From: Hemerocallis citrina
Taxonomy: Eukaryota > Streptophyta > Magnoliopsida > Asparagales > Asphodelaceae
DNA length: 64,000 nucleotides
Direction of reading: 5' to 3'
Assembly (NCBI GenBank): GCA_017893485.1
Contig: CM030359.1
Span: 34,393,994-34,457,993 of the forward strand
This document shows positions 20,884 through 59,281 of this stretch, one piece after another. How positions within the stretch are numbered: position 1 is the stretch's first letter; every line of letters starts with the position of its first letter. Below the pieces are notes generated by a model. It searched no databases. It worked only from the letters and a program-made list of their open reading frames with translations, and was not told where the DNA came from. The translations under genes and the position numbers were made by a program.

Positions 20884-20888
20884 AGCCA

Positions 20889-28855: not shown

Positions 28856-29419
28856 AGGATTTGTATTAATATACTTGATGAACCCAATAATATTCACATT
28901 TAGGAGCAATAATCTTACTGCAATTGGACATTTAAATGCTCTATATGTGGTATTTTACTCTTATTTTCTCTTTTCCATAGGAAACAGCCTAAAAACAGCA
29001 AAACGAAGCAGATTCAGGATTTTGAGGATGATACACAGACACTGCAGAGCATAAGTCGACTGGTTCTTCCAACAGGCGACTGGACAGAGAGGTTGAAGCT
29101 GCTCAGAACAGTCGACTTACTACAAAGACAGTCGACTTGACTGATTAATTATGAATCTACAGATGTCTCGGCACAGTCGACTTACTCCAAAACCAGTCGA
29201 CTGGCATTCAGCAGAGTTAGAAGATAAGAACAGTTGAAGATTCATCCTCATCCAAATCCGAAGCAAGATTAAGTTATCCAAACCCGGGTCGTCTGCGAAT
29301 AACAACTCTTCATTAATCAAGTTAGAGAACCAGGATTGGCAAGTGAGAAGATCGACTCAGATCTATATTCGATGTGTAAAGAGATAGAATTGAAATCTGC
29401 AGATGTGGGCAAAAGAAGT

Positions 29420-29429
29420 TATAAAAAGG
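29420..29429 (+). promoter_or_regulatory. D1 LTR TATA box
   Basis: TATAAAAAGG in the middle of the LTR, repeated at 48131-48140 in the 3' LTR. Transcription would start about 30 bases downstream. Confidence 0.65.
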
Positions 29430-30060
29430 CTGGAATAAGGAGTTGAGAGGAAGAACTTAATCTCTGAATCATCAATCGTCAACCAACAGGCATTATTCTA
29501 TCAGCATAGAAGAAACAAGGAGATCAAGTACACTGAAAGGAGCGATCCAGTCGACTGAGTGACAGCAAGTCGACTTCTCGGGCCGAACATCATCAGTTTA
29601 TTTCTTCTCTTTCTAGTTTTTATCATGTATTCGACACTGTTAGTCAATAAAAGTCTTATTATGTGGAACTAATTTCATAGTTGGGTAGATTGAAACCGTA
29701 GTCATATAATGCTTATATTCTTCTCAATGCTACTCTATTACTTATTGATTAAACCTGATTGTATTGGTATAGAATTATAATATCAATCAAACTTGTTCAG
29801 AAGTTCTAAGTGCAGTCGACTGAGAGTGACAGCAAGTCGACTGCCATGCAGAACCTGAGATTATCAAGTTTGCGTATTATAAATCTGAATCTGTTATATG
29901 AGCATAGAGACGACCCGTATCTCGTGCTCATAGCTTGTAACACAGGAATCTTTAGGGGTTCTTGGTTTAATCAACTTGAAGGATCTAGATCTGATACCAA
30001 TTTCTAGAACTTCGAGTGTTTGTTCGTTTTCATTGTTCCTATGCTTTCTTTGAGTGCAAC

Positions 30061-30175
30061 TTAGTAGATACCATGCTAAATACTTAAGGAAAGAAACGAA
30101 TTAGAGTAGATACCATGCCTAATTCTTGGCCTAGGGAAACATTAACTTTAAGGAGTAGATACCATGCCCTTAAAG
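30061..30175 (+). promoter_or_regulatory. Three tandem hairpins with the same loop in D1 5' LTR
   Basis: Loop AGTAGATACCATGC (14 nt) is shown by three stems: TTAG/CTAA (30061-30079, closing inside the loop motif), GAATTAG/CTAATTC (30098-30125) and CTTTAAGG/CCTTAAAG (30146-30175). The stems differ completely but each pairs perfectly. The D1 3' LTR copy is at 58853-58967. It lies downstream of the TATA box, so it should be in the RNA leader. Confidence 0.8.
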
Positions 30176-30495
30176 GAACAAACATGAGTGATTAGAGTAG
30201 TGTAGAAGGTGACTTAGCATTCTTGACTATAGGTGGAAATCAAAGCCCAACTACTTAATAGATATTTGTGATTCAGAACCACTTGATCTAGTTTTTAATC
30301 TTTTCATTTCTTTTAGAACAACACTTTATGATCTTTATTTTTTTTTTATTGATTAGTAAGTTAAGTACTACATTCTCTGTGGAATCGACCCTTTCTTTTC
30401 ACTACGCTTCTATAAACGATTCGTACACTTGCGAGGTTTTAATTTGTGTCTAGTTTATCTATTTATTTAGATAGCTGGATTTCACAACAAGTTTT

Positions 30496-30513
30496 TAGCG
30501 CCGCTGCCGGGGA
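30496..30513 (+). other. D1 primer binding site (tRNA-Asp type)
   Basis: TAGCGCCGCTGCCGGGGA, two changes from TGGCGCCGTTGCCGGGGA, the complement of the plant tRNA-Asp 3' end. Seven bases after the LTR. Confidence 0.8.
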
Positions 30514-30610
30514 TTGTTTAGTATTTTAACTTACACATCAGTAAAATCTTTTTCATTTCCATTTCTTTTATTAATAAATATTTTTCTTTTAGGTTACAGA
30601 ACTTTGGTGA

Positions 30611-32516
30611 ATGCACGGGAGACGATCACTTCATCCCGAGCTACTACCTATTGACGAAGAAACAGAGCGCACTCTGCACAGACTAGGTCGGCTGTCTGCA
30701 ACAAACCAGTCGACTATTGCAAGGAACAAGTTGACTGCACAGAGACCCAATTCACAAGCAACAATGGGTGAGGAAGTACCAAATCGAGTACCAATGCAGG
30801 ACAAATTCACACCTAAGAATATTGAGCAACCTTCCTGCATTGCTTATCAACCTAATGTCACAAGGAATATGCATCTATCTCCTCAATTACGTAGCATGGT
30901 TCCCCACTTTAGTGGCAAACCAGACGAAGATCCTCACCTCCATCTGCAAGATTTCTTTGATCTTTGCAGAACACAAAGCGTCCAAGGGCTTACCCCTGAA
31001 CAAATCAGGTTAATCTTGTTTCCATTCTCTTTAAAACTTAATGCTAAATTGTGGTATAATTCTTTGGAACCAGGATCAATTCAATCATGGGAGCAATTGG
31101 TAACAAAGTTCTTGAAAGAATTCTTTCCAGCCCAGAAAACCAAACAACTAAAAAGGGAGATTCAACTCTTCCAACAAAAAGATGGAGATTTATTCTTCGA
31201 AGCATGGAAGGATTTCAAGAACAAGCTTCTCAAGTGTCCTACGCACAATATGCCTAAAGATGATCAGGTACAAGCATTTTATGAGGGTTTAAATGATACT
31301 AATAAGGCAATTGTGGATTCAGCTTGCAACGGAATCTTGATGAGGAAAAGTGGTGAGGAGGCCATCGAACTATTTGAAGAACTCAGCGAGAACTCACAGC
31401 AATTCTCAACAAGGGGAAGAGGCATTTCGAAAAAACAGGGAGTTTACGAAATTTCTAGTAGTAATAACATACAATTAGAAATGGTAAACATGAACAAAAA
31501 AATTAATATGCTTGTTAATGCAATGACGACGATGGGCGGTGTAAAAAACCAAACAAAAGAAATTTGTGCAATTTGTTCTCATTTTGATCAAACGACTGAT
31601 ACGTGTCCCATGTCTTCTTTCACAGATCAGGAGCATGCAAACTATGTAGGACAAGGAGTGTTTCCACCAAAGAACAACCCCTTCTCGAATACGTACAATC
31701 CAAGGTGGAGGAACCATCCAAATTTTTCATGGAGCAACAATCAAAACAATCAAGGCACTCAATCTTCGCAAGGACATGCACGGAACTTCCAGATGGGAAG
31801 TGGGTTTGATCGGCCAATTCAAGAACAGAAGAAGTTGGATTTTGAATCTACCGTTCTTCAATTGCTCCAACAGCAACATCAAACAAGCAACCAACAAGGG
31901 CAGGCAATTCAGAAATTAGAAACCCAAATCGGTCAAATCGCGAAGGAGTTGAGTGAAAGAAAGGCAGGAGAACTCCCATCACAAACTATACCAAACCCTA
32001 GAGGCCAAGAACAGCTCAAATCAGTGACAACTCTAAGAAGTGGTAAGATAATTGACAGCAAGGTTGGAACACATGCAGACGAATTAGATACACAACCATC
32101 AAAAGCCTGGGGTTCCAACAAGGTAAGTAAAAAAGAAGGGGCAGTATTGCCACCTTTCCCTCAAAGGTTAGTCAAGCAAAAGAAAGAACAATATTTATTT
32201 GATATCTTTGAAACTCTCAGAAAGGTAGAAATTAATATTCCCCTACTTGATGCTATTAAACAAATTTCTTCTTATGCCAAATTTTTGAAAGAATGCTGTA
32301 CTCACAAGAGAACATTTCAGGTTAGGGAGGATGTGGCTTTGATAGAGGAAGTGAGCGCCGTATTGTTAAGGAAATTACCTCCTAAATTGAAGGACCCAGG
32401 TAGTTTTACCATTCCTTGCAGGGTTGGTGAGCACTTCTTTGAAAAGGCACTGCTAGACTTGGGGGCAAGCATAAATCTTCTTCCATACTCTGTTTACGAA
32501 AAGCTAGGATTGGGGA
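30611..32516 (+). pseudogene. D1 gag-protease remnant
   Basis: Gag and protease part of an Athila polyprotein, closely similar to the intact copy in D2. The capsid-type retrotransposon gag region is at residues about 95-225 ([31 protein letters not shown]). The zinc knuckle is CAICSHFDQTTDTC. The pattern CX2CX4HX4C needs His where Gln stands, whereas D2 keeps His. The protease motif [16 protein letters not shown] is present. The frame breaks at a G run at 32512-32515: D1 has four G where D2 has five, so everything downstream shifts. A paired GTCGAC motif sits near the gag start (30709 and 30730, second copy decayed to GTTGAC). Confidence 0.88.
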
Positions 32517-34577: not shown

Positions 34578-35146
34578 TGATGAACACATTATTATTCACT
34601 TTTTAGAGCAATAATCTTAATATAATTAGACATTTAAAAGCTCTCTATATGGTATTTAACTCCTATTTTCTCTTTTCCATAGGAAACAGCTTATAACAGC
34701 AAAACGAAGCAGATTTAGGACTTCAAGGACAATACACAGAGAACTGCAGAGGATAAGTCGACTGGTTCCTCAACCAGGCGACTGGACAGGAGAAGCTGAT
34801 TTTCCACAACTATCGTCACAGTCGACTTATTCCCAAAGACAGTCGACTGGTATGACCAAAGATGAAATCTTTAGAAGTCTCGACTCAGTCGACTGGTTCG
34901 AAGACAAGTCGACTGGTCTGCGGCGGAGTAAACAGATAAGATCTTCAAAGATACACCTGCATCTAAATTCAAATCTACTTGGATCAAGATTTTATACAGC
35001 GAATCAAATCTAAAGAAGGGGTATTTTCCAAGTGGACGTGGTGAACAGATAAGGAAAGAAAGGAGAAAAGAGAAAGATATTAATCATCAAATCAAATAAA
35101 GAAGAATCTTCCTGAAAAAGTGGAAACCCTAATTCTCAGCCGTGTT

Positions 35147-35155
35147 CTATAAATA
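35147..35155 (+). promoter_or_regulatory. D2 LTR TATA box
   Basis: CTATAAATA after a CCGTGTT context, also at 43533-43541 in the 3' LTR. Downstream is a CT-rich stretch typical of a start region. Confidence 0.65.
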
Positions 35156-35844
35156 TCAGAATACCATCTCTTGAACGGGCTCTCTCTCCACTCCACGACT
35201 CCATCCAAGGACGATCAGATATATCTCTGGAAAGCAACTCAATCACCAAGTTCCTGAACAAGCATCGAGAACATCACTCCATCAACATCGAAGAAGGAAA
35301 GAGAAGATCCAGCAACCAGAAGGCAGTCGACTGTGTGACAGCCAGTCGACCATATTGCCGGAATCCATTAGTTTATTTCTTCTTCTCTCTTTATTCTTTT
35401 TATGTTGATCATGTATTCAAACTTGTTAAGCAATAAAGTTATTATTATGTGGAACTAATTTCATAGTTGGGTAGATCGAAACCGTAGTTATGTAGTGCTA
35501 TATTCTTCTGAGATCTTCTAATTACTTATTGATTGAATCTGGTTGAATTGACATAGATTAATGATCATCAAACTTGGATCTTGAAGTCTGAGAGCAGTCG
35601 ACTGAGGTGAGAGCCAGTCGACTGACATACAGCACGTGAGAATATCAAGTTTATGTTATCATTTATCTAAATCTGTTATATGAAGCATATTGAGACGACC
35701 GAATCTCGTGCTCATAATTTGTAACAAAAGAATCTTTAGGGGTTCTTGGTTCAATCAACTTAGAGGATCTAGATCTGATACCAATTTCTAGAACTTTAAG
35801 TGTTTGTTCGTTTCCACTGTTCTTATGTTTTCTCTAAGTATAAC

Positions 35845-35959
35845 TTAGTAGATACCATGCTAAAATACTTAGGGGAAGAAACGAATTAGAGTAGATACCA
35901 TGCCTAATTCTTGGCTGAGGGAAACAATACTTTAAGGAGTAGATACCATGCCCTTGAAG
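35845..35959 (+). promoter_or_regulatory. Three tandem hairpins with the same loop in D2 5' LTR
   Basis: Same array as in D1: stems at 35845-35863, 35883-35910 and 35930-35959 around AGTAGATACCATGC. The 3' LTR copy is at 44231-44345, where the third loop has one change (ATCATGC). Confidence 0.8.
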
Positions 35960-36285
35960 TGAACAACATGAGTAATTAGAAGCAAATTTAGAAGGCAAAT
36001 TAGCATTACTAACTATTGGTGGAGATCAACAACCCAACTATTCAAGAGATATTTGTGATTCAACACCTCTCATCTTAGTTTTAATCTTTTAGTTCTTTAG
36101 AATAGTACAACAACTCTTATTCATTTTTATTAGTAGTTTTATTGATTAGTAAGTTGAAGTCTACAATCTCTGTGGGATCGACCCTTGCTATTACTACGAT
36201 TCGATTCGTGCACTTGCGAGGTTTTATAATTTGTGTCTAGGTTTATCTATTTATTTAGGTAGCTAGATTTCCAACAACAAGTTTT

Positions 36286-36303
36286 TGGCGCCGTTGCCGG
36301 GGA
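36286..36303 (+). other. D2 primer binding site (tRNA-Asp)
   Basis: TGGCGCCGTTGCCGGGGA matches the complement of the plant tRNA-Asp 3' end over 18 bases. Nine bases after the 5' LTR. Confidence 0.9.
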
Positions 36304-36401
36304 TTGTTTAGTATTTTAACTTACAAGTCAGTAGAATTTTTTTATTAGTTTTTCTTTTCTTTTATTAATAATTTTTCTTTTAGGTTACAGGACTTCGGTG
36401 A

Positions 36402-39400
36402 ATGCACGGTAGACGATCACTTCGTCCAGAGCTACTACCTATTGACGCAGAAACAGAACGAACTTTGCACAAACTAGGTAAACTTTTTGCAGCCAACCAG
36501 TCGACTGATACCAGGAGACAGTCGACTGCACAGAGACTAATCTCACAGACAACAATGGCTGAAGAAATACACAATCGAGTACCAATGCAGGACAAATTTA
36601 CTCCTAAGAATATTGAGCAACCTTCCTGCATTGCTTTTCAACCTAATGCCACAGGGAACATGCACCTATCTCCTCATTTACTTAGTATGGTTCCCCACTT
36701 TAGTGGCAAACCAGATGAAGAGCCTCATCTTCACTTGCAAGACTTTTTCGATCTTTGCAGGACACAAAGCGTCCAAGGGCTTACCGCTGAACAAATCAGG
36801 TTAATCTTGTTTCCTTTTTCTTTAAAACTTAATGCTAAGTTGTGGTATAATTCTTTGGAACCAGGATCAATTAATTCATGGGAGCAATTGGCAACGAAAT
36901 TTTTGAAAGAGTTCTTTCCAGCACAGAAAACCAAACAGCTGAAAAGGGAGATTCAACTCTTCCAACAAAAAGATGGAGATCTATTCTTCGAAGCATGGAA
37001 GGATTTCAAGAGCAAGCTTCTCAAGTGTCCTACTCACAATCTGCCTAAGGATGATCAGGTACAAGCTTTTTATGAAGGTTTAAATGACACTAACAAGGCA
37101 ATTGTTAATGCAGCTTGCAATGGAATTTTGATGAGGAAAAGTGGAGAAGAAGCCATTGAACTTTTTGAAGAACTCAGCGAGAACTCCCAACAATTCTCAA
37201 CAAGAAGGGGACCTACGAAAAAACAGGGAGTTTATGAGATCTCTAATAATAATAACATTCAATTAGAAATGGCAAACATGAATAAGAAAATTGATATGCT
37301 TGTTAATGCAATGTCGACAATGGGTGGAGTTAAAAATCAAACAAACGAAATGTGTGCAATTTGTTCTCATTTAGATCACACAACTGATACATGTCCCATG
37401 TCTACTTTTACAGATCAGGAGCATGCAAACTATGTGGGTCGAGGAGTATTTCCACCAAAGAACAATCCATACTCGAACACATATAACCCAGGATGGAGAA
37501 ATCATCCAAACTTCTCATGGAGCAATAATCAAAATAATCAAGGGAATCAATTCACACAAGGACATACAAGGAACCCTCAGATGGGAAGTGGGTTTGAAAG
37601 ACCAGCTCCAGAACAGAAGAAGTTGGATTTTGAAACCACTGTTCTTCAATTGCTCCAACAACAACATCAAACAAGCAACCAACAAGGACAAGCAATTCAG
37701 AAGTTGGAAACCCAAATTGGTCAGATTGCAAAAGAGCTAAGCGAAAGAAAGGCAGGTGAACTCCCTTCACAAACCATACCAAATCCGGGAGGTCAAGAAC
37801 AACTCCAAGCAGTCACAACCCTAAGAAATGGTAAGATAATTGACAACAAGGTTGGAACACAAACAGACAAACCAGTCGACTGTTTTTACAAACCAGTCGA
37901 CTGCACAGACAAATCAAAAACACAACCATCAAAAGCTTTGGGTTCAAATAAGGTAAGTGAAAAAGTAGGGACAGTTCCACCACCATTCCCTCAAAGGTTA
38001 GTCAATAAAAAGAAAGAACAACATTTATATGACATCTTTGAAACTCTTAAAAAGGTAGAAATTAATATTCCCCTACTTGATGCGATTAAACAAATTCCTT
38101 CTTATGCCAAATTTTTGAAAGACTGTTGTACTCACAAAAGAACATTTCAGGTTAAGGAGGATGTGGCCTTGACAGAAGAAGTGAGTGCTGTTTTATTAAG
38201 AAAATTACCACCTAAACTGAAGGATCCAGGTAGTTTCACCATTCCTTGCAAGGTTGGTGAGCACTTCTTTGAAAAAGCACTGTTAGACTTGGGGGCAAGC
38301 ATCAACCTTCTTCCTTACTCGGTTTACGAAAAGCTTGGATTGGGGGAACTCAAGCCAACATCCATCACTTTGCAATTGGCTGATCGCAGCATAAAAAGAC
38401 CTAGAGGAATTTTAGAAGATGTCCTAGTTCAGGTGAATGATTTTATTTTGCCTGCTGATTTTGTTGTGTTAGATATGGAGGAATCTTCAATGTCATCATC
38501 TCTACCGATCATATTAGGTAGGCCCTTTATGAGCACAGCTGATATAAAAATTTGTGTTAAAAAGGGTATTATAAGTATGAAGATAAACGGAGAAAAAGTG
38601 GAATTTAAAATGTTTGATACACTGAAATTACCACAAGATGATCATGAATGCTATAATATTGATGTGGTGCAGGAGATTGTGGATCAAACATTTCAGGTAC
38701 ATAGCGTTGAACCACTTCAAGCCACAATCACTCAATCTCTAACTTTATCTCATGTTGAACAGGAATACGATGACTGGGAGATTGCAGAGACAGTACATCA
38801 CCTTGAAACTCCACAGTCATATTCAGGTAAGCCTGCACCTTTATTTGAAAAATTGGTGTCTGATAATCTTTGTTTTTCTACAGATCAGGCGCCTGGTGCA
38901 CAGATAAAGTCGACTGGTCTTCTAACCAGTCGACTGAACCAAGAAACACAGGACAAGTCGACTGCTGACATGAACCAGTCGACTGTACAGAAGCATCCAG
39001 ACATAGAACTCAAGCAGCTGCCCGATCATTTGAAACATGCCTTTTTAGGTGAGAACCAGACGCTACCAGTAATAATTGCTGCCAACTTAACTGCACAGGA
39101 AGAAGAAAAGCTGCTGAAGGTATTGCGAGAACACAAAAATGCAATAGGATGGACCATTGCAGACATCAAGGAAATAAGTCCATCCAAATGCATGCATAGG
39201 ATATTGCTTGAGAACGATGCAAAACCTAGCAGAGAGGCACAGAGAAGGCTCAACCCCAACATGAAGGAAGTGGTAAGAGCAGAAATCTTGAAGCTACTAG
39301 ATGTTGGCATCATCTATCCTATCTCAGATAGCAAATGGGTAAGTCCTATACATGTAGTTCCTAAGAAAAGTGGAGTTACAGTGGTAACAAATGAAGAGAA

Positions 39401-41963: not shown

Positions 41964-42609
41964 ACTCATCATGTCTAGCTGAAGACATGAAACACAGTGC
42001 TTATTGGGAGGCAACCCAACTTTCAGGGGAGTATTTACACTTTCCCTTTATTATTATTCATTTTTATTTTTATTTTTCAGTCTCTCCTTACTAGATGGTA
42101 ACACATGCCTATGTCTTATGTTTTGTGCGAACATTGAGGACAATGTTCCATCTAAGTGTGGGGGTATTAGTTAGTTATATTTGGAATCTTTTGAATTTTT
42201 TTTAGGATAAACAATTTCTTATAAAATAAGAGTAAGGATACTTATTTACTTTAGGATTGTTGAGTTTCATAATTCCCTACAAAATTGTGCGAGTCATGCG
42301 ATTATACAAACAAATGTGATGCTTTTTCTGATAATTATTCCCTTTAGATCTAGTCCTAAATCGAGTTTAAGTAAATAGAGTGATACAATATATGTATATA
42401 TATTTGAATAAAGTCAGTCTACTCCAATGTTTTGAGGGCTTAGTTACTAGGGGTATTCATCACCAATGTTTACCTTTACGTCAAACGGCAACTTGAAATA
42501 TGAGTATGCAAAGCACTTTAATGTTTGTGACTTGTTGAGTAACCGGGTGGATACATCACAAATGTTTCGCATTCGCGTCAAAAGACAAGTGACAACTTTA
42601 AAGAAGAGA

Positions 42610-42661
<52 letters not shown>

Positions 42662-42963
42662 AGTTTGCTACTGGATTTGTAGTAGAGAAAAGGGATAATC
42701 ACAGACTGAGTAGATGCATACTATAACTACATTAATCGCATGACAAGTATGACTAAGATTGGGATTTATGAATAGACAATTGCACTGAAGAAAATGGGTA
42801 TGGTTAATTTTACTTTAGCTGAAATTGTTTGTAGTTTTATATTTTTCATTTTGATGTCCACATAATAAGAAATCTTGGTGGTTGAATCTATTGTTATTAT
42901 TATTCTCCCTATTCATAATTCTAGTTTGCTTGAGGACAAGCAAAAGCTAAGTGTGGGGGTATT
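41964..42963 (+). other. D2 3' region with duplicated PPT and a 46-base A run
   Basis: Non-coding. Just after the stop is TATTGGGAGGCAACCCAACT, a conserved Athila feature. A PPT-like tract CTAAGTGTGGGGGTATTAG occurs at about 42150-42168, and the true PPT, CTAAGTGTGGGGGTATTT, at 42946-42963 abuts the LTR. Both are preceded by TTGAGGACAA. A run of 46 A lies at 42612-42657. I see no extra (env-like) ORF. Confidence 0.75.
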
Positions 42964-44662: not shown

Positions 44663-44667
44663 GTGGC

Positions 44668-47586: not shown

Positions 47587-48391
47587 TGATGAACCCAATA
47601 ATATTCACATTTAGGAGCAATAATCTTACTGCAATTGGACATTTATATGCTCTGTATGTGGTATTTTACTCTTATTTTCTCTTTTCCATAGGAAACAACC
47701 TAAAAACAGCAAAACGAAGCAGATTCAGGATTTTGAGGATGATACACAGACACTGCAGAGCATAAGTCGACTGGTTCTTCCAACAGGCGACTGGACAGAG
47801 AGGTTGAAGCTGCTCAGAACAGTCGACTTACTACAAAGACAGTCGACTTGACTGATTAATTATGAATCTACAGATGTCTCGGCATAGTCGACTTACTCCA
47901 AAACCAGTCGACTGGCATTCAGCAGAGTTAGAAGATAAGAACAGTTGAAGATTCATCCTCATCCAAATCCGAAGCAAGATTAAGTTATCCAAACCCGGGT
48001 CGTCTGCGAATAACAACTCTTCATTAATCAAGTTAGAGAACCAGGATTGGCAAGTGAGAAGATCGACTCAGATCTATATTCGATGTGTAAAGAGATAGAA
48101 TTGAAATCTGCAGATGTGGGCAAAAGAAGTTATAAAAAGGCTGGAATAAGGAGTTGAGAGGAAGAACTTAATCTCTGAATCATCAATCGTCAACCAACAG
48201 GCACTATTCTATCAGCATAGAAGAAACAAGGAGATCAAGTACACTGAAAGGAGCGATCCAGTCGACTGAGTGACAGCAAGTCGACTTCTCGGGCCGAACA
48301 TCATCAGTTTATTTCTTCTCTTTCTAGTTTTTATCATGTATTCGACACTGTTAGTCAATAAAAGTCTTATTATGTGGAACTAATTTCATAG
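47587..48391 (+). repeat. D1 3' LTR, left part (cut by E)
   Basis: 805 bp matching 28876-29680, ending at the CATAG target duplication of E (48387-48391). Confidence 0.95.
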
Positions 48392-48987
48392 TGTTGATTC
48401 TTGATTTTGATGATCACAACACAGTGCAACATGTGTTTATATTATACAGCTAACAATGCAGTGTTCATATCAAAAGACAATTCTAGCTGAACAAATGCAC
48501 AAGCTTTCAAGGATACAGCTCAAGACAAGGATCAAGACTTTACTCAAAACAAGGATCAAAGATTCAACTCAAGACCCAAAGCTCAAATGTGTTATATTGT
48601 TGTGTCTTGTAAACATTGTAATGTACTTCCCTGTTGAGTCTTTAGTCTGATGTAAAGCCTTGTCAACACACACACACACACTTAACAATTTCATATTGTG
48701 TGTCTCTAAAAAAAAAAAAACCCCTCAAAATAAGTCAAAACAGTTTGAAGAATTTTAGCTTTTAAGTACCAGTCGACTTAAGCCTATGCCAGTCGACTGA
48801 TAAGTACGAAACTGTTTAAAATTATTCAAACTCTGATCAGTCGACTCATATGGCAACCCAGTCGACTGATCGAGAGCTTTTTGACCGTTTTCTGATTTTC
48901 AAAAACGAACTTTTTCAAATTCAAACGGTTTGATCCGTTGGTTGACAGTTATGTAACTGCTTTCCAACGTTCAGAAGTACAAAACTC

Positions 48988-48996
48988 TTTATATAG
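48988..48996 (+). promoter_or_regulatory. E LTR TATA box
   Basis: TTTATATAG between two upstream GTCGAC pairs (48772-48866) and the downstream leader. Repeated near 57575 in the 3' LTR. Confidence 0.6.
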
Positions 48997-49258
48997 AGTT
49001 TCTTCTCAAACAGAAACACTTACTTGACTTACTTGATTTTCTGACATAAACACCCGAGTACTCTTGAGAAAAATTTAAGTGATTTTCTGTGAAGAACAAA
49101 GCCTTCAAGTTCACATACTTTGGTTCTCTACACTCAGTCCAGTATAGCATTGAATTCGCTTTGGACTGAGTATAGAAGTCAACCTAATTCTTTAGCCACG
49201 TGCATCAACACATACAACAAGGCTATAGGTTGATTGTAAAATTCCTCTTGTACTCTTG

Positions 49259-49355
49259 CTCTCGGTTGGAGAGTGTTTTTGACTCTTGGTTGTAGAGTCG
49301 GTGTCTTTTCACTCTTGGTTGAAGAGTGGGTCTGCTTTCTCTGGTTGAGAGAAAG
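49259..49355 (+). promoter_or_regulatory. Four tandem hairpins with loop GGTTG in E 5' LTR
   Basis: Stems around a constant GGTTG: CTCTC/GAGAG (49259-49273), GACTCT/AGAGTC (49281-49299, with T either side of the loop), CACTCTT/AAGAGTG (49310-49328) and CTTTCTCT/AGAGAAAG (49335-49355). The outer pair G-C of the second stem is C-G in the third, a compensatory change. The 3' LTR copy is at 57844-57940. Confidence 0.82.
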
Positions 49356-49883
49356 GACTACGGGTTAGACAAGGTTGTTGTCTTGAACGCCGTAGGGTAT
49401 TCTTGTATTTATTTTTCAAGAATAGTGGAAATCTCAAGTGGGTTGCTTGGGGACTGGATGTAGGTCGGGAGGACCGAACCAGGATATATCTTGTGTACTC
49501 TGTGATTGGTTGTCTTGTTTTTGCACTTACTTTTATTTATTGAAGTTCTGCAAATCTAGTCTGTACAGTCGACTCAGCTTCGTATTAGTCGACTGATCAG
49601 TCTTGTATCTGTTACTCTTTGTTTCTTCAGTCGCCTGGCTTATCTATTAGTCGACTGAACCGAGTTATTATATTTTCTTTGTTTGATATTATCAGTCGAC
49701 TGTCTCTCAGATAAGTCGACTGCATCGAGAGATTAAGTTTCTTTTAATTTGGCTATATCTGTCGACTGGTTCCCAACTAGGTCGACTGTGCCGAGAAAAA
49801 TAATTTTATTCCGCAATTTATTTTCATTAACACTATTCACCCCCCCTCTAGTGTTTGTTGCTTAGCCTACAGGATCCAACACT

Positions 49884-49895
49884 TGGTATCAGAGC
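49884..49895 (+). other. E primer binding site (initiator tRNA-Met)
   Basis: TGGTATCAGAGC, the standard Ty1 PBS complementary to initiator tRNA-Met, two bases after the LTR. Confidence 0.93.
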
Positions 49896-49908
49896 AAGGT
49901 TACAGGCA

Positions 49909-51726
49909 ATGGCAACTACATCAAATACTAATCAGTACCATGAAGGACAATCTACACAACGACCACCACTATTTGATGGAACAAACTATAACTATTGGAA
50001 GTGCCGAATGCGAATCTATCTCCAATCAATCAACTACGAGATATGGCAAATGACAGAGACGGAACATACTGCTCCTACCATTCCATATGCACAATGGAAT
50101 GATGATCAAAAGAGTCAGACTATGAACAATGCCAAAGCAATGAATGCTTTATTCTGTGCACTGACGAAGGAAGAATTCAACCGTGTATCCAATGCTACAA
50201 CCGCATATCAAATTTGGCATACACTCGAGGTAACACATGAAGGAACGAATAAAGTAAAAGAATCTAAAATTTCTGTTCTTGTCCACAGGTTTGAAATGTT
50301 CAGAATGAAGGACAATGAGACTGTGTCTGAGATGATTACAAGATTCACAGACATTACCAACTCTCTTGTGGCGCTTGGAAAGACTTATACTCAAGCAGAG
50401 ATGGTCAGAAAAGTTCTACGAGCACTCACTCCAGAGTGGGAAAAGAAAACCACAGCAATAGAAGAGGCAAATGACTTGTCAACACTTACTCTCGAGAATC
50501 TTGTTGGTAATCTCATGGCATATGAGGTTCAACTTGAAGATCGAAAGAAAGATACTGAATCACACCAAGCAAAGAAGAAATCATTGGCTTTTAAAGCCAT
50601 GACTGACTCAGAAGATGAGGAAGAAGATGAAGAAGAAATAGCAATGTTCACTCGGAGATTCAAGAAGTTCTTAAAGAAGGGTAAGTTTCATTCTAAGAGT
50701 AAAGATTCTAATGACCCTCCTACATGTTTCAGGTGCAATAAAATAGGTCACATGAAGAAGGACTGTCCCTTAGAAAATACAAAGAACAAGGGAAAAACAT
50801 CCAACTTCAAAAAAGACAAATATTCAAAGAATAAATTTGCTAAGAACAAAAAGGCGTATCAAGCCACATGGGATGATAGCGATTCATCTTCCGAAGAAGA
50901 AACGGATGAAAATAACGAAGTGGCAAATATATGCTTTATGGCTGCACAAGAACATGTAAGTAATGATTATGATTCTGAAGATCTTCTTGATGCATTTAAT
51001 GAAATATTCCAAGAATTAAAGAAAGAAAAGATTAGAGTTAAGAATCTTGAGAAAGTGAATCAAACACTTAATCAAGAAAATCTTAACCTTGATAAGGAAG
51101 TAAAATCCTTAAATTCTCGTCTTGCAAGTCTAGATACTGATCTTGAAACTCTCAAAAAGAATTATGAAGAGATTTCAAAGAATGTATCTAAGTTTAACAA
51201 AGGCAAAGAGAATTTAAATGATATGCTTCATCATCAAGTTGCATCTAGTCATAAATTTGGACTTGGTTTCAAGAAATCTTCTATAAAAGAATCTCCTGTT
51301 TTAAACACTAGTAAGACTAAGTCAGCATCTATTTCTAGTGTTACACACAAGTTATATGATTTCTTTGCAAAACCACAGGTTGTTAAATTCAGTGATAAAA
51401 GTGATACTAACGTTCGGTTAAGTCGACTGAACCATAGCACCAGTCGTCTGTCCAGAGAAAGTGGATCTCATTCCACGGGATCAAAACCTCTTATAAGTCG
51501 ACCTAGTGCATCTACCAGTCGACTGATACATACCAACAGTCGACTGATAAACACTGGTAAGTCGACTGGACAGAACAAACTAGTATGGGTTCCAGTCAAT
51601 ATTAATCAGAATGATAGAATTGCTTATATCAATTCTTATATGCTGAATGTATGTACTTCTACCAATTATATTCCTGCTTATGGAGGAAGATCAAACTCTT
51701 CATGGGTTTGGTTTCCCCCAAACTAA
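49909..51726 (+). CDS. E Gag protein
   Basis: 605 codons from the ATG just after the PBS. The frame is open from 49855, but that earlier ATG lies in the LTR. The Gag forms the cytoplasmic particle. The N-terminal region FDGTNYNYWKCRMRIYLQS and the later GTNKVKESKISVLVHRFEMF are the Ty1 gag (UBN2-type) fold. Zinc knuckle CFRCNKIGHMKKDC (CX2CX4HX4C) is at about residues 273-286. An acidic stretch (DEEEDEEE) precedes it and a Lys-rich stretch follows. Residues about 365-440 look like a coiled coil (VKSLNSRLASLDTDLETLKK). Near residues 505-560 the protein reads Ser/Arg/Leu/Thr-rich because several GTCGAC motifs are translated there. It ends TAA without reaching protease. Confidence 0.9.
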   Translation: MATTSNTNQYHEGQSTQRPPLFDGTNYNYWKCRMRIYLQSINYEIWQMTETEHTAPTIPYAQWNDDQKSQTMNNAKAMNALFCALTKEEFNRVSNATTAYQIWHTLEVTHEGTNKVKESKISVLVHRFEMFRMKDNETVSEMITRFTDITNSLVALGKTYTQAEMVRKVLRALTPEWEKKTTAIEEANDLSTLTLENLVGNLMAYEVQLEDRKKDTESHQAKKKSLAFKAMTDSEDEEEDEEEIAMFTRRFKKFLKKGKFHSKSKDSNDPPTCFRCNKIGHMKKDCPLENTKNKGKTSNFKKDKYSKNKFAKNKKAYQATWDDSDSSSEEETDENNEVANICFMAAQEHVSNDYDSEDLLDAFNEIFQELKKEKIRVKNLEKVNQTLNQENLNLDKEVKSLNSRLASLDTDLETLKKNYEEISKNVSKFNKGKENLNDMLHHQVASSHKFGLGFKKSSIKESPVLNTSKTKSASISSVTHKLYDFFAKPQVVKFSDKSDTNVRLSRLNHSTSRLSRESGSHSTGSKPLISRPSASTSRLIHTNSRLINTGKSTGQNKLVWVPVNINQNDRIAYINSYMLNVCTSTNYIPAYGGRSNSSWVWFPPN

Positions 51727-51779
51727 TATGTTTTGGACCCAATAAAAAGGGTACCATATTTACCTCAAATGTTTTATAG

Positions 51780-54700
51780 GTACCCAAGAAAGAACGCTGG
51801 ATATTAGACAGCGGATGTTCAAAACACATGACAGGGCATGCCAACTTACTATCCACCATTCAGAATATAGATGGAGGAACCGTCACCTTTGGAGATAACA
51901 ACAAAGGCAAAGTCATCGGTATTGGCATGGTCGGTAAAATATCTAACCCTATTATAGAAAATGTACTTTTAGTTAATGGTTTAAAGCATAATCTCTTAAG
52001 TATTAGTCAATTGTGTGATAAAGGTTATAAAATAGTTTTTGAAAAAGATGCATGCTTAATTTATGATTCTACTATGGAAAAAGTTATTTTTCAAGGTTGT
52101 CGCAAAAACAATATTTATGAATTATGTTTGAATGCAATTGATTTTTCAAATGATTTTTGTTTGATAGCCTCTAACAATGAATCTTGGTTATGGCATAGAA
52201 AATTTGGACATGTGAACATGAAAAATCTCTCAAAATTATCTAAATATAACCTAGTTAAAGGACTGCCAAAATTATCCTTTAAAAAGGATAAGTTATGTGA
52301 TGCATGTCAACTAGGAAAACAAATCAAATCCACTTTTAAAACAAAAGATGTAATCTCTACAAGTAGGCCACTTGAATTAATTCATATGGATTTATTTGGT
52401 CCTACTAGAGTTGCTTCTTTAAATAAAAGTAGATATGTGTTTGTTTTAGTAGATGATTTTTCAAGATTTACTTGGACATTCTTTTTAAAACATAAAAATG
52501 ATGCTTTTGAAGAATTTGCACATTTTTGTAAACGTGTTCAAAATCAAAGATCTCTAACCATAGTCACTATTAGAAGTGATCATGGTGGAGAATTTGAAAA
52601 TGAAACATTTACAGAATATTGCAACAAGAATGGTATAACACATTCATTTGCATTTCCTAGAGCTTCACCACAAAATGGTGTGGTTGAAAGAAAGAATAGG
52701 ACTTTGCAAGAATGCGCACGTACTATGCTTGTTGAAAGCAATCTACCAAAGCATTTTTGGGCTGAAGCTGTTGCTACAGCTTGTTATGTTTTGAATAGAA
52801 TTCTTCTAAGACCTAAACTAAAGAAGACTTGTTACGAGTTATTTTTTAATAAAATTCCTAAAGTCTCTTACTTTAAAACATTTGGTTGTAAGTGTTTTAT
52901 TCTAAACACAAAAGATAATCTAGACAAATTTGATCCTAGATCTAATGAGGGTATCTTTTTAGGATACTCAAATAGGAGTAAAGCATATAGAATTTTCAAT
53001 AAGTCTACTATGACCATTGAAGAATCAATGCATGTTACATTCGATGAATCCTTACCTTCATCAACATTAAATAAGGATGATGAAACTGATTTATCACCTT
53101 TAGATAATGTGATTACATCCTTAGAGCAAACTAATCTATCTGATAAGTCGACTGATAAAGTCTCCAAGTCGACTGACTTAAACCAGTCGACTGAAGAACA
53201 AGTCAAGTCGACTGATCCGATTGTGATATCTTCAACTTTACCAAAGTCATTCGTTGAAGTTAAAGATCATCCTCATGACTTAATAATTGGTGACATCTCC
53301 CATGGTATTCAGACACGCTCGCATATTAATATGATCTCTCATACAGCATTCTTGTCAGATTTTGAACCAAAGAATATACAAGAAGCTTGTGAGAATGAAT
53401 ATTGGGTGAATGCCATGCAAGATGAACTAAACCAATTTGTAAGAAATGATGTATGGGATTTAGTTCCTAGACCTCCTGATCAGACTATCATTGGTACCAA
53501 ATGGGTATTCAAGAATAAGTTAGATGAATCAGGACAAGTTGTAAGGAACAAGGCTAGATTAGTTGCCCAAGGATATAATCAAGAAGAAGGTATAGATTTT
53601 GATGAAACATATGCTCCTGTTGCTAGACTAGAATCTATTCGTATTTTATTATCTTTTGCTTGTTTTATGAATTTTATACTTTATCAAATGGATGTGAAAA
53701 GTGCCTTTCTTAATGGGTTCATTAAGGAAAATGTTTATGTTAAACAACCACCAGGTTTTGAACATGAACAATTTCCAGATCATGTTTATAAATTGAAAAA
53801 GGCTTTATACGGTCTTAAACAAGCACCTCGTGCTTGGTATGATCGTCTGAAAACTTTTCTTTTAGAAACAGGATTTGAAATAGGTAAAGTAGACACTACT
53901 TTGTTTATCAAAAGAGTTAAGAATGATATCTTAATCATACAAATATATGTTGATGATATAATTTTTGGTTCTACTAATAATAATCTATGTCAAGAATTTG
54001 CTAATACCATGAAAAATGAATTTGAGATGAGTCACATGGGTGAACTCAATTATTTCCTTGGATTGCAAATTAAACAATCTTCAAATGGCATATTTATCAA
54101 TCAAGGCAAATATGCAAAGGAATTACTCAAACGTTTTCACATGGATAGTACTAGTAGTAAATCCACACCTATGGCTACTACTACTACTCTTGACAAAGAT
54201 TTATTAGGTAAGAGTGTTGATCAAAAACTCTATCGAGGTATGATTGGTTCACTCTTATATATTACTGCAAGTAGACCAGATATTATGTTCAGCGTATGTT
54301 TATGTGCTAGATATCAATCTAGTCCTAAAGAATCTCATTTAAAAGCAGTGAAACGAATTTTAAGATATATTAAAGGCACATCTGAATATGGTTTATTTTA
54401 TCCACGCACCGATATTTTTCAACTTTTGTCTTATAGCGATGCCGATTTTGCTGGAAGCAAAACTGATCGCAAGAGTACTAGTGGTACATGTCACTTTTTG
54501 GGACATTCCCTAGTATCTTGGTGCAGTAAAAAGCAAAATTCTGTATCCCTATCAACCACAGAAGCTGAATATATTGCTGCAAGTTTAGCATGCGCTCAAA
54601 TTTTATGGATGAAACAAACTTTGTTAGATTATGGTATTTCATTTGAGAAACCCTCAATTATGTGTGATAATACCAGTGCAATTAATCTATCTAAAAATCC

Positions 54701-54899
54701 GATTCAACATTCACGTACAAAACATATTGATATTCGACATCATTTTCTACGTGATCATGTTTTAAAAGGAGATATATCTTTAGACTTTATCTCTACTGAT
54801 CAACAAGTAGCAGATATATTTACCAAGCCCCTTAAAGAAGAAACTTTTATCAAGTTAAGAAGAGAACTTGGAATTTGTGATTTTATTGATATTTGTTGA
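51780..54899 (+). CDS. E Pol polyprotein: protease, integrase, RT, RNase H
   Basis: Open from codon 51780 for about 1040 residues. The first ATG is 51828, after the protease active site, so translation must come from gag by frame change and read-through of the TAG at 51777-51779, or this copy is defective. Protease [13 protein letters not shown] near residue 8. Integrase zinc region [10 protein letters not shown]...CDACQLGKQ about 137-180. Core Asp in HMDLFGP (about 201) and SDHGGEF (about 266), and Glu in [11 protein letters not shown] (about 302). RT from [13 protein letters not shown] (about 573) through the catalytic YVDDIIFGS (about 723). RNase [19 protein letters not shown] (about 885) and [11 protein letters not shown]. 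It ends FIDIC. Two pairs of GTCGAC motifs lie in the integrase-RT linker (53147-53212), giving KSTD repeats. Confidence 0.92.
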
Positions 54900-55381
54900 A
54901 AATCACTCTGTTAAGTCGACTGTGTTTTGAATCAGTCGACTGCACTGAATTGTTATATATACGTATTTTGTTCTCGACTAAGTCGACTGATTATCAATCC
55001 AGTCGACTGGTCAGCAGATATAAGATGTTATTTTCTTCTCGACTCAGTCGACTGATATATCATACCAGTCGACTATCGCAAGATCAATCTGTCTTCAGCG
55101 ACTATTCATCACAAATTTTGAGATAAAAACTTTTCACTATCTCACCCGTGACAACCCTATCTGACCGTTGATTTCCATTTCCTTTAATCTGAGCCGTCTA
55201 TTCACTGTTAAAAACCCCTTTTCCTGCCCCTCTTTCTTACCGATCTCCTATTTTGCCCCAATTTCAAAACCCTAGTTTTTTGAAGAAGGAGCAAGTCGAC
55301 TCAAATTTGCTGCTGGTGCTCGCCTCTGTTCTGATCTTTTGTTTTTCTTTGGTATAATCTCTATCCCTGTCTCTCTCTCTA
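54900..55381 (+). other. E spacer between pol and the extra ORF, with three motif pairs
   Basis: Non-coding. GTCGAC pairs at 54915/54935, 54982/55002 and 55047/55068, and a lone AAGTCGACTC near 55293. CT-rich before the next ATG (CTCTCTCTCTAATGG), as in a leader or promoter region. Confidence 0.7.
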
Positions 55382-56470
55382 ATGGCACCCAAAAGATCTA
55401 AGCGGACTCATGAGGGTAGCTCTTCTTCTCAAGACTACACTCAATATTTATTGAGTCCAGATCTTATTGACCAATGGTACCTCATTTGTACCATTTCCAT
55501 CTTCCCTGGAAGATTTGTCAACTTTAATAATCTTGCCCCTTTCAATCTCATTCCTTTATTTCAAAATAGCAGTCTTTATGATTTTCTCTCTTTAGAAAAC
55601 CAACCCAACTATTATCCTCAACTAATCTATTTGTTTTACACAAATATGATAGTTGTACAAAAACCCAATGGGAATGTTCTTATCCGTTCGTCTGTGAAGA
55701 ATGTCAAAATGACACTCACACCGTCTAGGATAAATGAAATTTTAGGAATTGATGATGGAGGTATATTTCTTGATGACATTGTTTTAGATAATGCCTCAAT
55801 TTTGTCTAAAATCTTTTTACCTCATCATGGTCCTCCAATGACAAGTAAAAATATTCAACCAATTGCAAAGCTTGTAGCTAGAATATTAACGTATAACATC
55901 CTTCCCAAAAAGGGTAGTTATGACCACTATTCTCTAGAACTACAAAAAGCTGTGTATGCAATTTTTGGTAAAATTGATATCAATTGGGGTCATGTCATTT
56001 TTTCTCAACTTCAGCATCACACTCACTTTCTACCTTTTGGTGGCTTTCTCACTAGAGTCTTTCTTGCTTTTAGCGTTGATCTCGATTCCGAGACCAATGT
56101 TGTTTCTCATTATGATTTCTTCGATCGTGCTAGCCTCGCACGTATGAAGCTTGTTGATAACCCTCCTAGCTCTCCACCTCCTTCTCAAGCACCTTTAGGT
56201 TCGTCTGCTAGACCTTCTGCCTCGTCTAGTTCATCTCTTCCCAACGCCAACTATGATGATCCACGTACCATGTATGAATGTGTCAACTACCTTATGAAAC
56301 ATTCACAGACTGTGGATACACATCTTCACACCCTTGATTCCAGACTTGATTCTTTTGATTCCCAACTCCACCACATTGATACCAAGATTGACAACCTCAC
56401 CAATCTCTTCACCTCTCAATTTCATCCTTCTTCTCATGGTGATGATGAAGACTCGGATGAAGACGATTGA
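55382..56470 (+). CDS. E extra ORF downstream of pol (putative plant transposon-protein domain)
   Basis: 362 codons in the place where SIRE-type elements may carry an env-like gene. The body (YLLSPDLIDQWYLICTISIF, VKMTLTPSRINEILGIDDGG, QLQHHTHFLPFGGFLTRVF) resembles the globular domain found in many plant retroelement ORFs, annotated as a putative plant transposon protein. I recognise it only by general similarity. I see no signal peptide or clear membrane span, so an envelope role is not supported. Residues about 265-290 are Ser/Pro-rich. About 305-345 is a heptad-like region (LHTLDSRLDSFDSQLHHIDTK), probably a coiled coil for oligomerisation. The C-terminus is acidic (DDEDSDEDD), and the N-terminus starts MAPKRSKRTHEG, possibly a nuclear signal. 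The frame is undamaged, which suggests recent use. Confidence 0.72.
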   Translation: MAPKRSKRTHEGSSSSQDYTQYLLSPDLIDQWYLICTISIFPGRFVNFNNLAPFNLIPLFQNSSLYDFLSLENQPNYYPQLIYLFYTNMIVVQKPNGNVLIRSSVKNVKMTLTPSRINEILGIDDGGIFLDDIVLDNASILSKIFLPHHGPPMTSKNIQPIAKLVARILTYNILPKKGSYDHYSLELQKAVYAIFGKIDINWGHVIFSQLQHHTHFLPFGGFLTRVFLAFSVDLDSETNVVSHYDFFDRASLARMKLVDNPPSSPPPSQAPLGSSARPSASSSSSLPNANYDDPRTMYECVNYLMKHSQTVDTHLHTLDSRLDSFDSQLHHIDTKIDNLTNLFTSQFHPSSHGDDEDSDEDD

Positions 56471-56978
56471 AGATTTTATTTTTTTTTCTCTTATGTACTT
56501 TTTAATGGACTTATTTCTGTATGCAACTTTCTATTAGTCTCCTTTCTATGAAAAAGATGGTTATTTTGTGTTTTTTGATGATTACAAAGGGGGAGAGATA
56601 TCTGAGTTATATCTGAGTTATATTTATGCTTGCTTATAACTGCTTGCTTATATTATCTGTGTTTTTATCATTATTTGTGTTATTTTTGGCTGTTGATGTG
56701 TTTTTATCATTATTATCTGTGTTATTTTTGGCTGTTGAAAATCTCTGGTCAGTCGACTGCTACTAATACTCAGTACTAATGCTACTAATGCTACTATATA
56801 TGTACTTACCATTTTTTTTACTGATCAGTCGCCTGCCAGTTGACACAGTCGCCTGATATGTGTTTTAAAGAAAATGCATTCTGTGTTTTTAATAGGGGGA
56901 GCATATCCTTACTGTGCCTATATACATATTATCTGTTATTATCAGCTATTGTGTTGTCATCATCAAAAAGGGGGAGAA
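56471..56978 (+). other. E 3' region with several PPT-like tracts
   Basis: Non-coding. Purine tracts ACAAAGGGGGAGAG (about 56583-56596), ATAGGGGGAGCA (about 56891-56902) and the PPT AAAAAGGGGGAGAA adjoining the 3' LTR. One motif pair of the GTCGCC variant is at 56828/56848 and a single GTCGACTGC near 56752. Confidence 0.75.
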
Positions 56979-58467
56979 TGTTGATTCTTGATTTTGATGA
57001 TCACAACACAGTGCAACATGTGTTTATATTATACAGCTAACAATGCAGTGTTCATATCAAAAGACAATTCTAGCTGAACAAATGCACAAGCTTTCAAGGA
57101 TACAGCTCAAGACAAGGATCAAGACTTTACTCAAAACAAGGATCAAAGATTCAACTCAAGACCCAAAGCTCAAATGTGTTATATTGTTGTGTCTTGTAAA
57201 CATTGTAATGTACTTCCCTGTTGAGTCTTTAGTCTGATGTAAAGCCTTGTCAACACACACACACACACTTAACAATTTCATATTGTGTGTCTCTAAAAAA
57301 AAAAACCCCTCAAAATAAGTCAAAACAGTTTGAAGAATTTTAGCTTTTAAGTACCAGTCGACTTAAGCCTATGCCAGTCGACTGATAAGTACGAAACTGT
57401 TTAAAATTATTCAAACTCTGATCAGTCGACTCATATGGCAACCCAGTCGACTGATCGAGAGCTTTTTGACCGTTTTCTGATTTTCAAAAACGAACTTTTT
57501 CAAATTCAAACGGTTTGATCCGTTGGTTGACAGTTATGTAACTGCTTTCCAACGTTCAGAAGTACAAAACTCTTTATATAGAGTTTCTTCTCAAACAGAA
57601 ACACTTACTTGACTTACTTGATTTTCTGACATAAACACCCGAGTACTCTTGAGAAAAATTTAAGTGATTTTCTGTGAAGAACAAAGCCTTCAAGTTCACA
57701 TACTTTGGTTCTCTACACTCAGTCCAGTATAGCATTGAATTCGCTTTGGACTGAGTATAGAAGTCAACCTAATTCTTTAGCCACGTGCATCAACACATAC
57801 AACAAGGCTATAGGTTGATTGTAAAATTCCTCTTGTACTCTTGCTCTCGGTTGGAGAGTGTTTTTGACTCTTGGTTGTAGAGTCGGTGTCTTTTCACTCT
57901 TGGTTGAAGAGTGGGTCTGCTTTCTCTGGTTGAGAGAAAGGACTACGGGTTAGACAAGGTTGTTGTCTTGAACGCCGTAGGGTATTCTTGTATTTATTTT
58001 TCAAGAATAGTGGAAATCTCAAGTGGGTTGCTTGGGGACTGGATGTAGGTCGGGAGGACCGAACCAGGATATATCTTGTGTACTCTGTGATTGGTTGTCT
58101 TGTTTTTGCACTTACTTTTATTTATTGAAGTTCTGCAAATCTAGTCTGTACAGTCGACTCAGCTTCGTATTAGTCGACTGATCAGTCTTGTATCTGTTAC
58201 TCTTTGTTTCTTCAGTCGCCTGGCTTATCTATTAGTCGACTGAACCGAGTTATTATATTTTCTTTGTTTGATATTATCAGTCAACTGTCTCTCAGATAAG
58301 TCGACTGCATCGAGAGATTAAGTTTCTTTTAATTTGGCTATATCAGTCGACTGGTTCCCAACTAGGTCGACTGTGCCGAGAAAAATAATTTTATTCCGCA
58401 ATTTATTTTCATTAATACTATTCACCCCCCCCTCTAGTGTTTGTTGCTTAGCCAACAGGATCCAACA
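56979..58467 (+). repeat. Element E 3' LTR
   Basis: 1489 bp, nearly identical to 48392-49881. One GTCGAC became GTCAAC near 58282, and another site is GTCGAC with CAG before it, where the 5' LTR has CTG. Confidence 0.95.
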
Positions 58468-58472
58468 CATAG

Positions 58473-59281
58473 TTGGGTAGATTGAAACCGTAGTCATGTA
58501 ATGCTTATATTCTTCTCAATGCTACTCTATTACTTATTGATTAAACCTGATTGTATTGGTATAGAATTATAATATCAATCAAACTTGTTCAGAAGTTCTA
58601 AGAGCAGTCGACTGAGAGTGACAGCAAGTCGACTGCCATGCAGAACCTGAGATTATCAAGTTTGCGTATTATAAATCTGAATCTGTTATATGAGCATAGA
58701 GACGACCCGTTTCTCGTGCTCATAGCTTGTAACACAGGAATCTTTAGGGGTTCTTGGTTTAATCAACTTGAAGGATCTAGATCTGATACCAATTTCTAGA
58801 ACTTCGAGTGTTTGTTCGTTTCCATTGTTCCTATGCTTTCTTTGAGTGCAACTTAGTAGATACCATGCTAAATACTTAAGGAAAAAAACGAATTAGAGTA
58901 GATACCATACCTAATTCTTGGCCTAGGGAAATATTAACTTTAAGGAGTAGATACCATGCCCTTAAAGGAACAAACATGAGTGATTAGAGTAGTGTAGAAG
59001 GTGACTTAGCATTCTTGACTATAGGTAGAAATTAAAGCCCAACTACTTCATAGATATTTGTGATTCAGAACCACTTGATCTAGTTTTTAATCTTTTCATT
59101 TCTTTTAGAACAACACTTTATGATCTTTATTTTTGTTTTATTGATTAGTAAGTTAAGTACTACAATCTCTGTGGAATCAACCCTTACTTTTCACTACGCT
59201 TCTATAAACGATTCGTACACTTGCGAGGTTTTAATTTGTGTCTAGTTTATCTATTTATTTAGATAGCTGGATTTCACAACA
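58473..59281 (+). repeat. D1 3' LTR, right part
   Basis: 809 bp completing the 1614-bp LTR after E. It holds the GTCGAC pair near 58606/58627 and the hairpin array 58853-58967, and ends CACAACA before ATACT. Confidence 0.95.

Follow-up and report, generated by a model that had tools for sequence, protein, structure and literature searches.

The window analysed in this study is a 64,000-nt stretch of Hemerocallis citrina DNA (GCA_017893485.1, CM030359.1, positions 34,393,994–34,457,993, forward strand). A three-level nest of retrotransposons, recognised by sequence reading and self-comparison, occupies positions 28876–59281 of the window. The palindrome AGTCGACT, with a GTCGAC core, is clustered in all three elements and stands there in pairs about 20 bp apart. 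The outermost element, D1 (28876–59281, plus strand), is an Athila-like Ty3 element, delimited by self-comparison, its ends and the 5-bp repeat ATACT on both sides, and its gag has a Pfam match. Its 5′ long terminal repeat (LTR) lies at 28876–30490, and its 3′ LTR is split into 47587–48391 and 58468–59281. The pol of D1 contains D2 (34578–44662, plus strand), a second Athila-like Ty3 element with the target-site repeat GTGGC and LTRs at 34578–36276 and 42964–44662. The 3′ LTR of D1 is interrupted by E (48392–58467, plus strand), a Sirevirus-type Ty1/copia element with the target-site repeat CATAG and LTRs of approximately 1490 bp. The LTR identities from self-comparison are high (D2, 99.6%; E, 99.5%; D1, 98.3–99.3%), so all three insertions are recent. 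The sample is thus one window with three elements of two independent families.

LTR stretches of D1 and D2 are approximately 78–82% identical in the self-comparison, indicating that the two elements are relatives. No blastn match of at least 100 bp at E ≤ 1e-10 was found between D and E. Pfam searches of D2 returned Retrotrans_gag, protease (PR), reverse transcriptase (RT), RNaseH and integrase in the Ty3 order, the protease match being just below the Pfam cut-off. We take the clade of D1 and D2 to be Athila-like from the style of gag and the primer binding site (PBS) TGGCGCCGTTGCCGGGGA. In E, Pfam matched gag, gag-pre-integrase, integrase, SH3 and RVT_2. A third open reading frame (ORF) of E, of 370 aa and in an env-like position (55358–56470, plus strand), matched PF20167. 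Its AlphaFold2 model, made with four sequences, was too poor to use (mean pLDDT 37).

The whole window holds 90 copies of GTCGAC and 78 of AGTCGACT. The nest contains 85 of the former and all 78 of the latter, and the remaining 33,594 bases contain 5 and 0, in agreement with a preliminary description that saw no such pairs in the other elements of the window. An order-1 Markov null for the nest (200 runs) gave a mean of 1.9 GTCGAC (maximum 6), a mean of 0.28 AGTCGACT (maximum 3) and no pair at 18–23 bp. The enrichment of AGTCGACT is approximately 280-fold (78 against 0.28 expected). The independent sites are fewer than 78, since each LTR is present twice and D1 is a relative of D2. Among the 64 palindromic 6-mers of the nest, GTCGAC had a same-word partner at 18–22 bp for 72 of its 85 copies. 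TCTAGA ranked second (8/16), and every 6-mer from the third rank down scored 0.

Exact GTCGAC pairs, LTR copies included, numbered 38, with spacings of 20 bp (19 pairs), 21 bp (14), 19 bp (3), 18 bp (1) and 22 bp (1). The count of about 47 pairs in the preliminary description was fair, as our hand count with one-mismatch partners and LTR duplicates gave 49 (33 non-redundant pairs and 16 in 3′ LTR copies), and the nine pairs it cited as examples were all correctly placed. After removal of the 3′ LTR copies, 53 exact and 16 one-mismatch sites remained. A partner with 0 or 1 mismatch at 18–22 bp was found for 51 of the 53 exact sites, against 0.008 partners expected per site from the density of one-mismatch sites; only 55295 and 56752 were unpaired. 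The 33 non-redundant pairs, among which overlapping pairs of the two E coding arrays count individually, were spaced by 20 bp (16), 21 bp (13), 19 bp (2), 18 bp (1) and 22 bp (1).

The pairs themselves are often grouped. Gaps between pairs below 150 bp (n = 12) ranged from 28 to 54 bp, 8 of them at 44–48 bp. Without the D1 duplicates, 7 of 10 gaps fell within one 5-bp window, which occurred in 0 of 20,000 uniform draws under a simple null that takes every gap within 20–100 bp as open. A weak outer half-site, CTC, was seen at −9 to −7 and is mirrored by GAG or GAA beyond the right site. Partners that are degenerate (for example AGGCGACT, AGTCGCCT and AGTCGTCT) retain one intact half, AGTCG or CGACT.

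The sites occur in LTRs and in coding regions. The D1 LTR has a cluster at 29054–29202 (pairs 29055/29075 with a degenerate second site, 29111/29131 and 29176/29196) and two pairs at 29549–29842 (29550/29569 and 29815/29836). Its gag carries a pair at 30708–30736 (30709/30730), the second site of which reads AGTTGACT. The D2 LTR has a cluster at 34756–34914 (34757/34777 with a degenerate second site, 34821/34842 and 34888/34908) and pairs at 35325–35623 (35326/35345, second site degenerate, and 35597/35617). The D2 gag pair at 36499–36527 (36500/36521) encodes QST...QST.

The E LTR has one cluster at 48771–48867 (48772/48792 and 48840/48861) and another at 49567–49787 (49568/49588, 49630/49650 with a degenerate first site, 49695/49715, and 49761/49781 with both sites degenerate at one flanking base). 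The C-terminal part of E gag holds a cluster at 51421–51567 (51422/51443 with a degenerate second site, and 51497/51518/51539/51561, of which 51497 is degenerate), encoding SRL and KST. The SH3-RT linker of E pol holds the array 53147/53168/53186/53207 (53146–53213), encoding KST and QST. Three pairs (54915/54935, 54982/55002 and 55047/55068) lie upstream of the env-position ORF at 54914–55074. A degenerate pair (56828/56848, both AGTCGCCT) is found upstream of the 3′ LTR at 56827–56854.

The motif is under DNA-level constraint between D1 and D2. Across 12 aligned sites, two of which are degenerate in one or both elements, 94 of the 96 motif columns were the same, 2 were different and none was gapped. 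The flanks within 11 bp gave 123 same, 60 different and 10 gapped columns (motif vs. flank, Fisher 1.6e-12), and all other columns gave 1370, 428 and 160, respectively. The coding sites, degenerate ones included, were assigned to frames 0/1/2 by the first G of GTCGAC. The counts were 3/1/6 in D2, 0/5/1 in E gag, 0/0/4 in E pol and 0/0/2 in D1, and the frames used encode VDW/VDC, SRL and QST/KST, respectively. A peptide-level motif was rejected because three reading frames are used, all three within D2 alone. The spacing also depends on the coding context: 14 of 20 non-coding pairs are spaced by 20 bp, whereas 9 of 13 coding pairs are spaced by 21 bp (20-bp spacing in non-coding vs. coding pairs, Fisher p = 0.004; p = 0.006 without D1). 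This shift to 21 bp is expected if the best spacing on DNA is close to 20 bp and coding sites must also fit the codon grid.

Beyond the start of gag, all pairs in the gag-pol of D2 lie within in-frame insertions that have no counterpart in D1. These insertions are 42, approximately 102 and 54 bp long, all multiples of three, and each contains one or two pairs. The first (37862–37903) is in the gag-PR linker and carries the pair 37875/37896 (VDC...VDC). The second (38886–38990, gap placement approximate) is in the PR-RT linker and carries 38909/38929 and 38957/38978. The third (40604–40657) is in the RNaseH-integrase linker and carries 40620/40640 (VDW...QST). Six relatives (P0126, P0127, P0129, P0138, P0143 and P0144) were aligned. 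The second insertion was absent from all six, and the third from all four that reach that position. Since the aligned relatives lack both, these two are most simply read as gained by D2. At the first insertion, P0126 and P0127 match D1 in their short length. The E gag sites lie in the C-terminal tail and the E pol sites in the SH3-RT linker, both of which are variable among the aligned relatives.

An exact QST/KST/SRL/VDW/VDC pair at 18–23 bp was found in none of 242 proteins other than P0001–P0003. The 242 proteins, many of which are partial, comprise two ORFs of the window and 240 homologues (best 120 of 267 and best 120 of 704). A looser scan for any peptide that GTCGAC can encode, devised after the letters of P0138 had been seen, gave one outlier, P0138, with 5 pairs against 0.07 expected. 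Summed over all homologues, it gave 78 where 30 were expected, and the spacings peaked at 19 and 21. We take this excess to reflect conserved positions common to related proteins. P0138, an Athila-like protein, may be a parallel case: it reads CRPVDEETERGSTGRRIPVDRSTG in the gag-PR linker, the site of the first D2 insertion, and RPVD recurs in its PR-RT linker. Its peptide PVDRSTG can be written as CCGGTCGACCGGTCGACCGG, equal to the Vitis Sirevirus box CGGTCGACCG, and other codons could encode it as well. Among the homologues, P0016 is named Klebsiella pneumoniae and is a relative of plant copia gag, which is probable contamination.

Three nucleotide relatives, L021, L022 and L023, encode plant-type Ty3 polyproteins. 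They are filed under Geminicoccus, Solirubrobacter and a Nomurabacteria metagenome-assembled genome, and are probably plant contamination. L021 and L022 (approximately 9 kb each) are 99.6% identical to each other despite their two genera; neither has two LTRs, and the best segment was 59% identical. GTCGAC is absent from both, as it is from the partial L023 (3.3 kb), and no palindromic 8-mer with G or C reaches three copies in L021 or L022. The motif is therefore unlikely to date back to an ancestor of all Athila-like elements, as the related element L021/L022, which comes from a different plant, is without it. Searches of viral contigs with the D and E alignments returned no relative, and tblastn of E gag against plasmids gave no match. 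A search of viral contigs for the pair pattern returned 20 stretches, which were judged by site counts and part of the letters of L004. At 450–900, L004 has dense TAGTCGACTA/TAGTCGAGTAGTCGACTA repeats with the same core and no indication that they are connected with the plant elements.

Sireviruses carry high-copy palindromic RM boxes in their LTRs and upstream of the env-like gene (Bousios et al. 2010, PMC2829016). This source describes the boxes as specific to Sireviruses and absent from its classic Ty1/copia elements, and its Table 3 gives the Vitis box as CGGTCGACCG. E shows several features of this group. The Sirevirus junction between the 5′ LTR and the PBS is CA/ATTGG followed by the 9-bp PBS TATCAGAGC, and E reads CCAACA CTTGG TATCAGAGC at 49876–49895, one base off ATTGG. 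Sireviruses also have several polypurine tracts close to the 3′ LTR, and E has three copies of GGGGGAG in 56501–57000. At the attachment site E reads GGGGGAGAATGTTGAT, with A-A before TG by our own parse, where the Sirevirus form is AT/TG. RM boxes are defined by at least eight palindromes per element, in the LTRs and upstream of ENV; E has six pairs in the LTR and three before the third ORF. Their CGG-CCG core is replaced here by AGTCGACT, and the RM box of Tnd-1 likewise lacks CGG-CCG (PMC2829016). The observed/expected CpG ratio was 1.22–1.45 in the E LTR and pre-ORF3 clusters, at a G+C content of only 0.38–0.39. It was 0.97–1.10 in the gag, pol and D2 LTR clusters and 0.35 in E pol. The windows were centred on the CpG-holding motif, to which the high values are partly due, and no island caller was applied.

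The E array fits Sirevirus RM boxes with a variant core. Half of the finding therefore has a published precedent, as E shows Sirevirus features and Sireviruses carry RM boxes. The likeness extends to the Vitis box, which has the same GTCGAC core. The sites here differ in their fixed pairing at 20–21 bp, which does not appear in the excerpts of the RM-box paper (PMC2829016). They also differ from the RM boxes described there, which are restricted to Sireviruses and to the LTRs, linker and env start, in lying within gag and pol of D2 and E and in recurring as the same box in the Ty3 elements D1 and D2. Fixed pairing, gag and pol sites and a box shared with a Ty3 family are apparently new, as far as excerpts of the open-licence literature go. 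The 2010 paper leaves the role of RM boxes open and, in the same excerpts, identifies no common site for a single DNA-binding factor (PMC2829016). The preliminary description was right in reading the sites as DNA-level pairs about two helical turns apart, and it overlooked the RM-box precedent for E.

Other known systems resemble these sites in part. Maize Sirevirus palindromes are also clustered in LTRs, and their palindrome-rich regions are reported as small-RNA hotspots (PMC10760457, PMC5311732). One maize palindrome is the top motif in the structured regions of both Copia and Helitron elements (PMC10760457), a precedent for sharing across classes. In the excerpts of these papers the palindromes are treated as secondary structure, whereas the sites here have a fixed pair spacing and show no stem covariation. 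The VANC system, proposed earlier as an analogy, holds as far as a short motif, clustered at high density in a transposable element (TE), is concerned; that of VANC is read by a sequence-specific factor (PMC5735166). It fails in other respects. The VANC21 motif YAGTATTAY is reported to be non-palindromic, to lie mostly outside coding DNA, to keep a single orientation and to be often part of tandem repeats (PMC5735166), whereas the sites here are palindromic pairs that also occupy coding DNA. No VANC-type match (DUF1985/DUF287) was found in seven ORFs at E ≤ 0.001. The optimum reported for EPF-type two-finger zinc-finger proteins, AGT-N10-AGT (PMC3268024, in excerpt), shares with our sites two AGT/ACT cores at a set spacing, and CAGTCGACTG has one AGT and one ACT. 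The arrangement here differs (AGT-N2-ACT within a site and ACT-N12-AGT between sites at 20 bp), and the comparison is a lead only.

We favour, with moderate confidence, the reading that the palindromes are cis-regulatory sites of one DNA-binding factor, probably host-encoded, which is used by both families. Protein binding, dimers, cooperativity and host origin are what we infer from the arrangement of the sites. The factor would bind (C/A)AGTCGACT(G/T) as a dimer. Two dimers would bind cooperatively on the same helix face, about 20 bp (two helical turns) apart, often with a gap of about 45 bp to the next pair and a weak outer half-site (CTC/GAG) one further turn out. The same site would serve the Athila-like D family, placed in its LTRs and, for D2, also within the in-frame insertions of variable gag-pol linkers. 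A host factor is favoured because D2 shares the code and has no extra frame of at least 150 aa in the approximately 1 kb between pol and its 3′ LTR. Activation, or keeping element chromatin open, would be the most likely consequence, as the sites are in LTRs and spread through the element body.

An anti-silencing or activating factor encoded by the elements, VANC-like and possibly the PF20167 product of E, would read the E sites and leave D as a freeloader. The third ORF of E and the clustering of sites just upstream of it (54915–55068) point this way, as do VANC6, which also affects AT9TSD1, a TE unrelated to VANDAL, and the clustered short motifs that VANC proteins target (PMC5735166, in excerpt). 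We consider this explanation unlikely, given the missing frame in D2 and the PF20167 protein (P0005), for which no DUF1985/DUF287 match was reported at E ≤ 10, with filters that drop most matches above about 0.1. About equally doubtful is a passage of the motif between the families by template switching or gene conversion, with later divergence of the flanks and retention of the sites by selection; this concerns the origin of the sites and not their function. D and E form one nest of recent insertions, a slight context similarity remains between them, and some spacers are alike, for example GGTTC at 34757 (D2) and 49761 (E). The site positions nevertheless differ between the two element genomes, no long D-E match was found, and the residual similarity is plausibly an extended consensus beside the core, with which exchange remains compatible. 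Common descent of the D and E sites was rejected on the same absence of a long match and the weak context similarity; the preliminary description had likewise seen in the unrelated carriers (Ty3 and Ty1) no simple case of common descent, and the motif contexts are without clear shared ancestry.

Less probable still is an action of the pairs in RNA, as a stem with a loop of about 10–12 nt that serves packaging, dimerisation, translation or small-RNA production, an idea also raised for maize Sirevirus palindromes. The reported small-RNA hotspots would suit it. Since any palindrome can fold with a second copy of itself, the presence of a stem carries no weight as evidence. At 12 stem positions, the 27 exact pairs were no more complementary than permuted ones (lowest p = 0.106), and the RNA hairpin is thus unsupported by covariation. 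Most one-mismatch partners break the stem (judged by eye), the pair 56828/56848 bears the same change in both copies as DNA sites would, and a loop requires neither the tight spacing nor its shift in coding DNA. It is very improbable that the pairs have no function and arose as a side effect of slippage, the growth of minisatellites or the target preference of some insertion process. The pair 37875/37896 amounts to a simple tandem repeat of 21 bp, and Tandem Repeats Finder also reports 30697–30736. Left contexts are no more alike within than between pairs (p = 0.69; right contexts, p = 0.038), and the motif is strongly constrained between D1 and D2. Tandem duplication as a general origin of the pairs is unsupported, apart from 37875/37896 and the weak signal in the right contexts.

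Several observations count against the cis-regulatory reading itself. The tandem repeat at 37875/37896 and the slight likeness of right contexts are two of them. Gaps of 45 and 65 bp do not correspond to an integral number of helical turns, which limits the phasing to the pair itself. P0129, P0138, P0143 and P0144 carry different sequence of 17–50 residues where D2 has its first insertion, and the direction of change there is unsure because four of the six relatives have other sequence. The D-E context likeness averaged 16.3 of 52 bases against 13.1 when shuffled, and 4% of shuffles attained the value of the best pair (26). The reading is also drawn from three elements of two families only.

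Other repeats of the window lie outside the nest. Minisatellites with units of 59–60 bp and imperfect inverted repeats, such as AACTTGCTG...CAGCAAGTT, occupy 11920–13052, 16593–17458 and 20888–21519, and are possibly regulatory arrays of other elements. A tandem array at 22376–22811 has 3.8 copies of a 116-bp unit. Long frames on the minus strand at 309–4293 encode LINE-like endonuclease and reverse transcriptase peptides (by eye) and contain no AGTCGACT.

Tentatively, the cis-regulatory reading may be extended to two superfamilies that converged on the address code of one trans-acting factor. The code would be a phased paired palindrome placed across the element body, coding regions included, by in-frame micro-insertions. 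It may exist in lineage-specific versions (AGTCGACT here and perhaps GGTCGACC in the plant of P0138) and give shared regulation or anti-silencing. A box shared by Ty1 and Ty3 elements provides a defined probe of two 10-bp palindromes 20 bp apart, for which one factor, two dimers and sensitivity to spacing are predicted. The D2 insertions suggest that regulatory sites may be built inside gag-pol by in-frame insertion, where selection on DNA spacing competes with the codon grid. Should the host encode the factor, a single switch may control several TE families.

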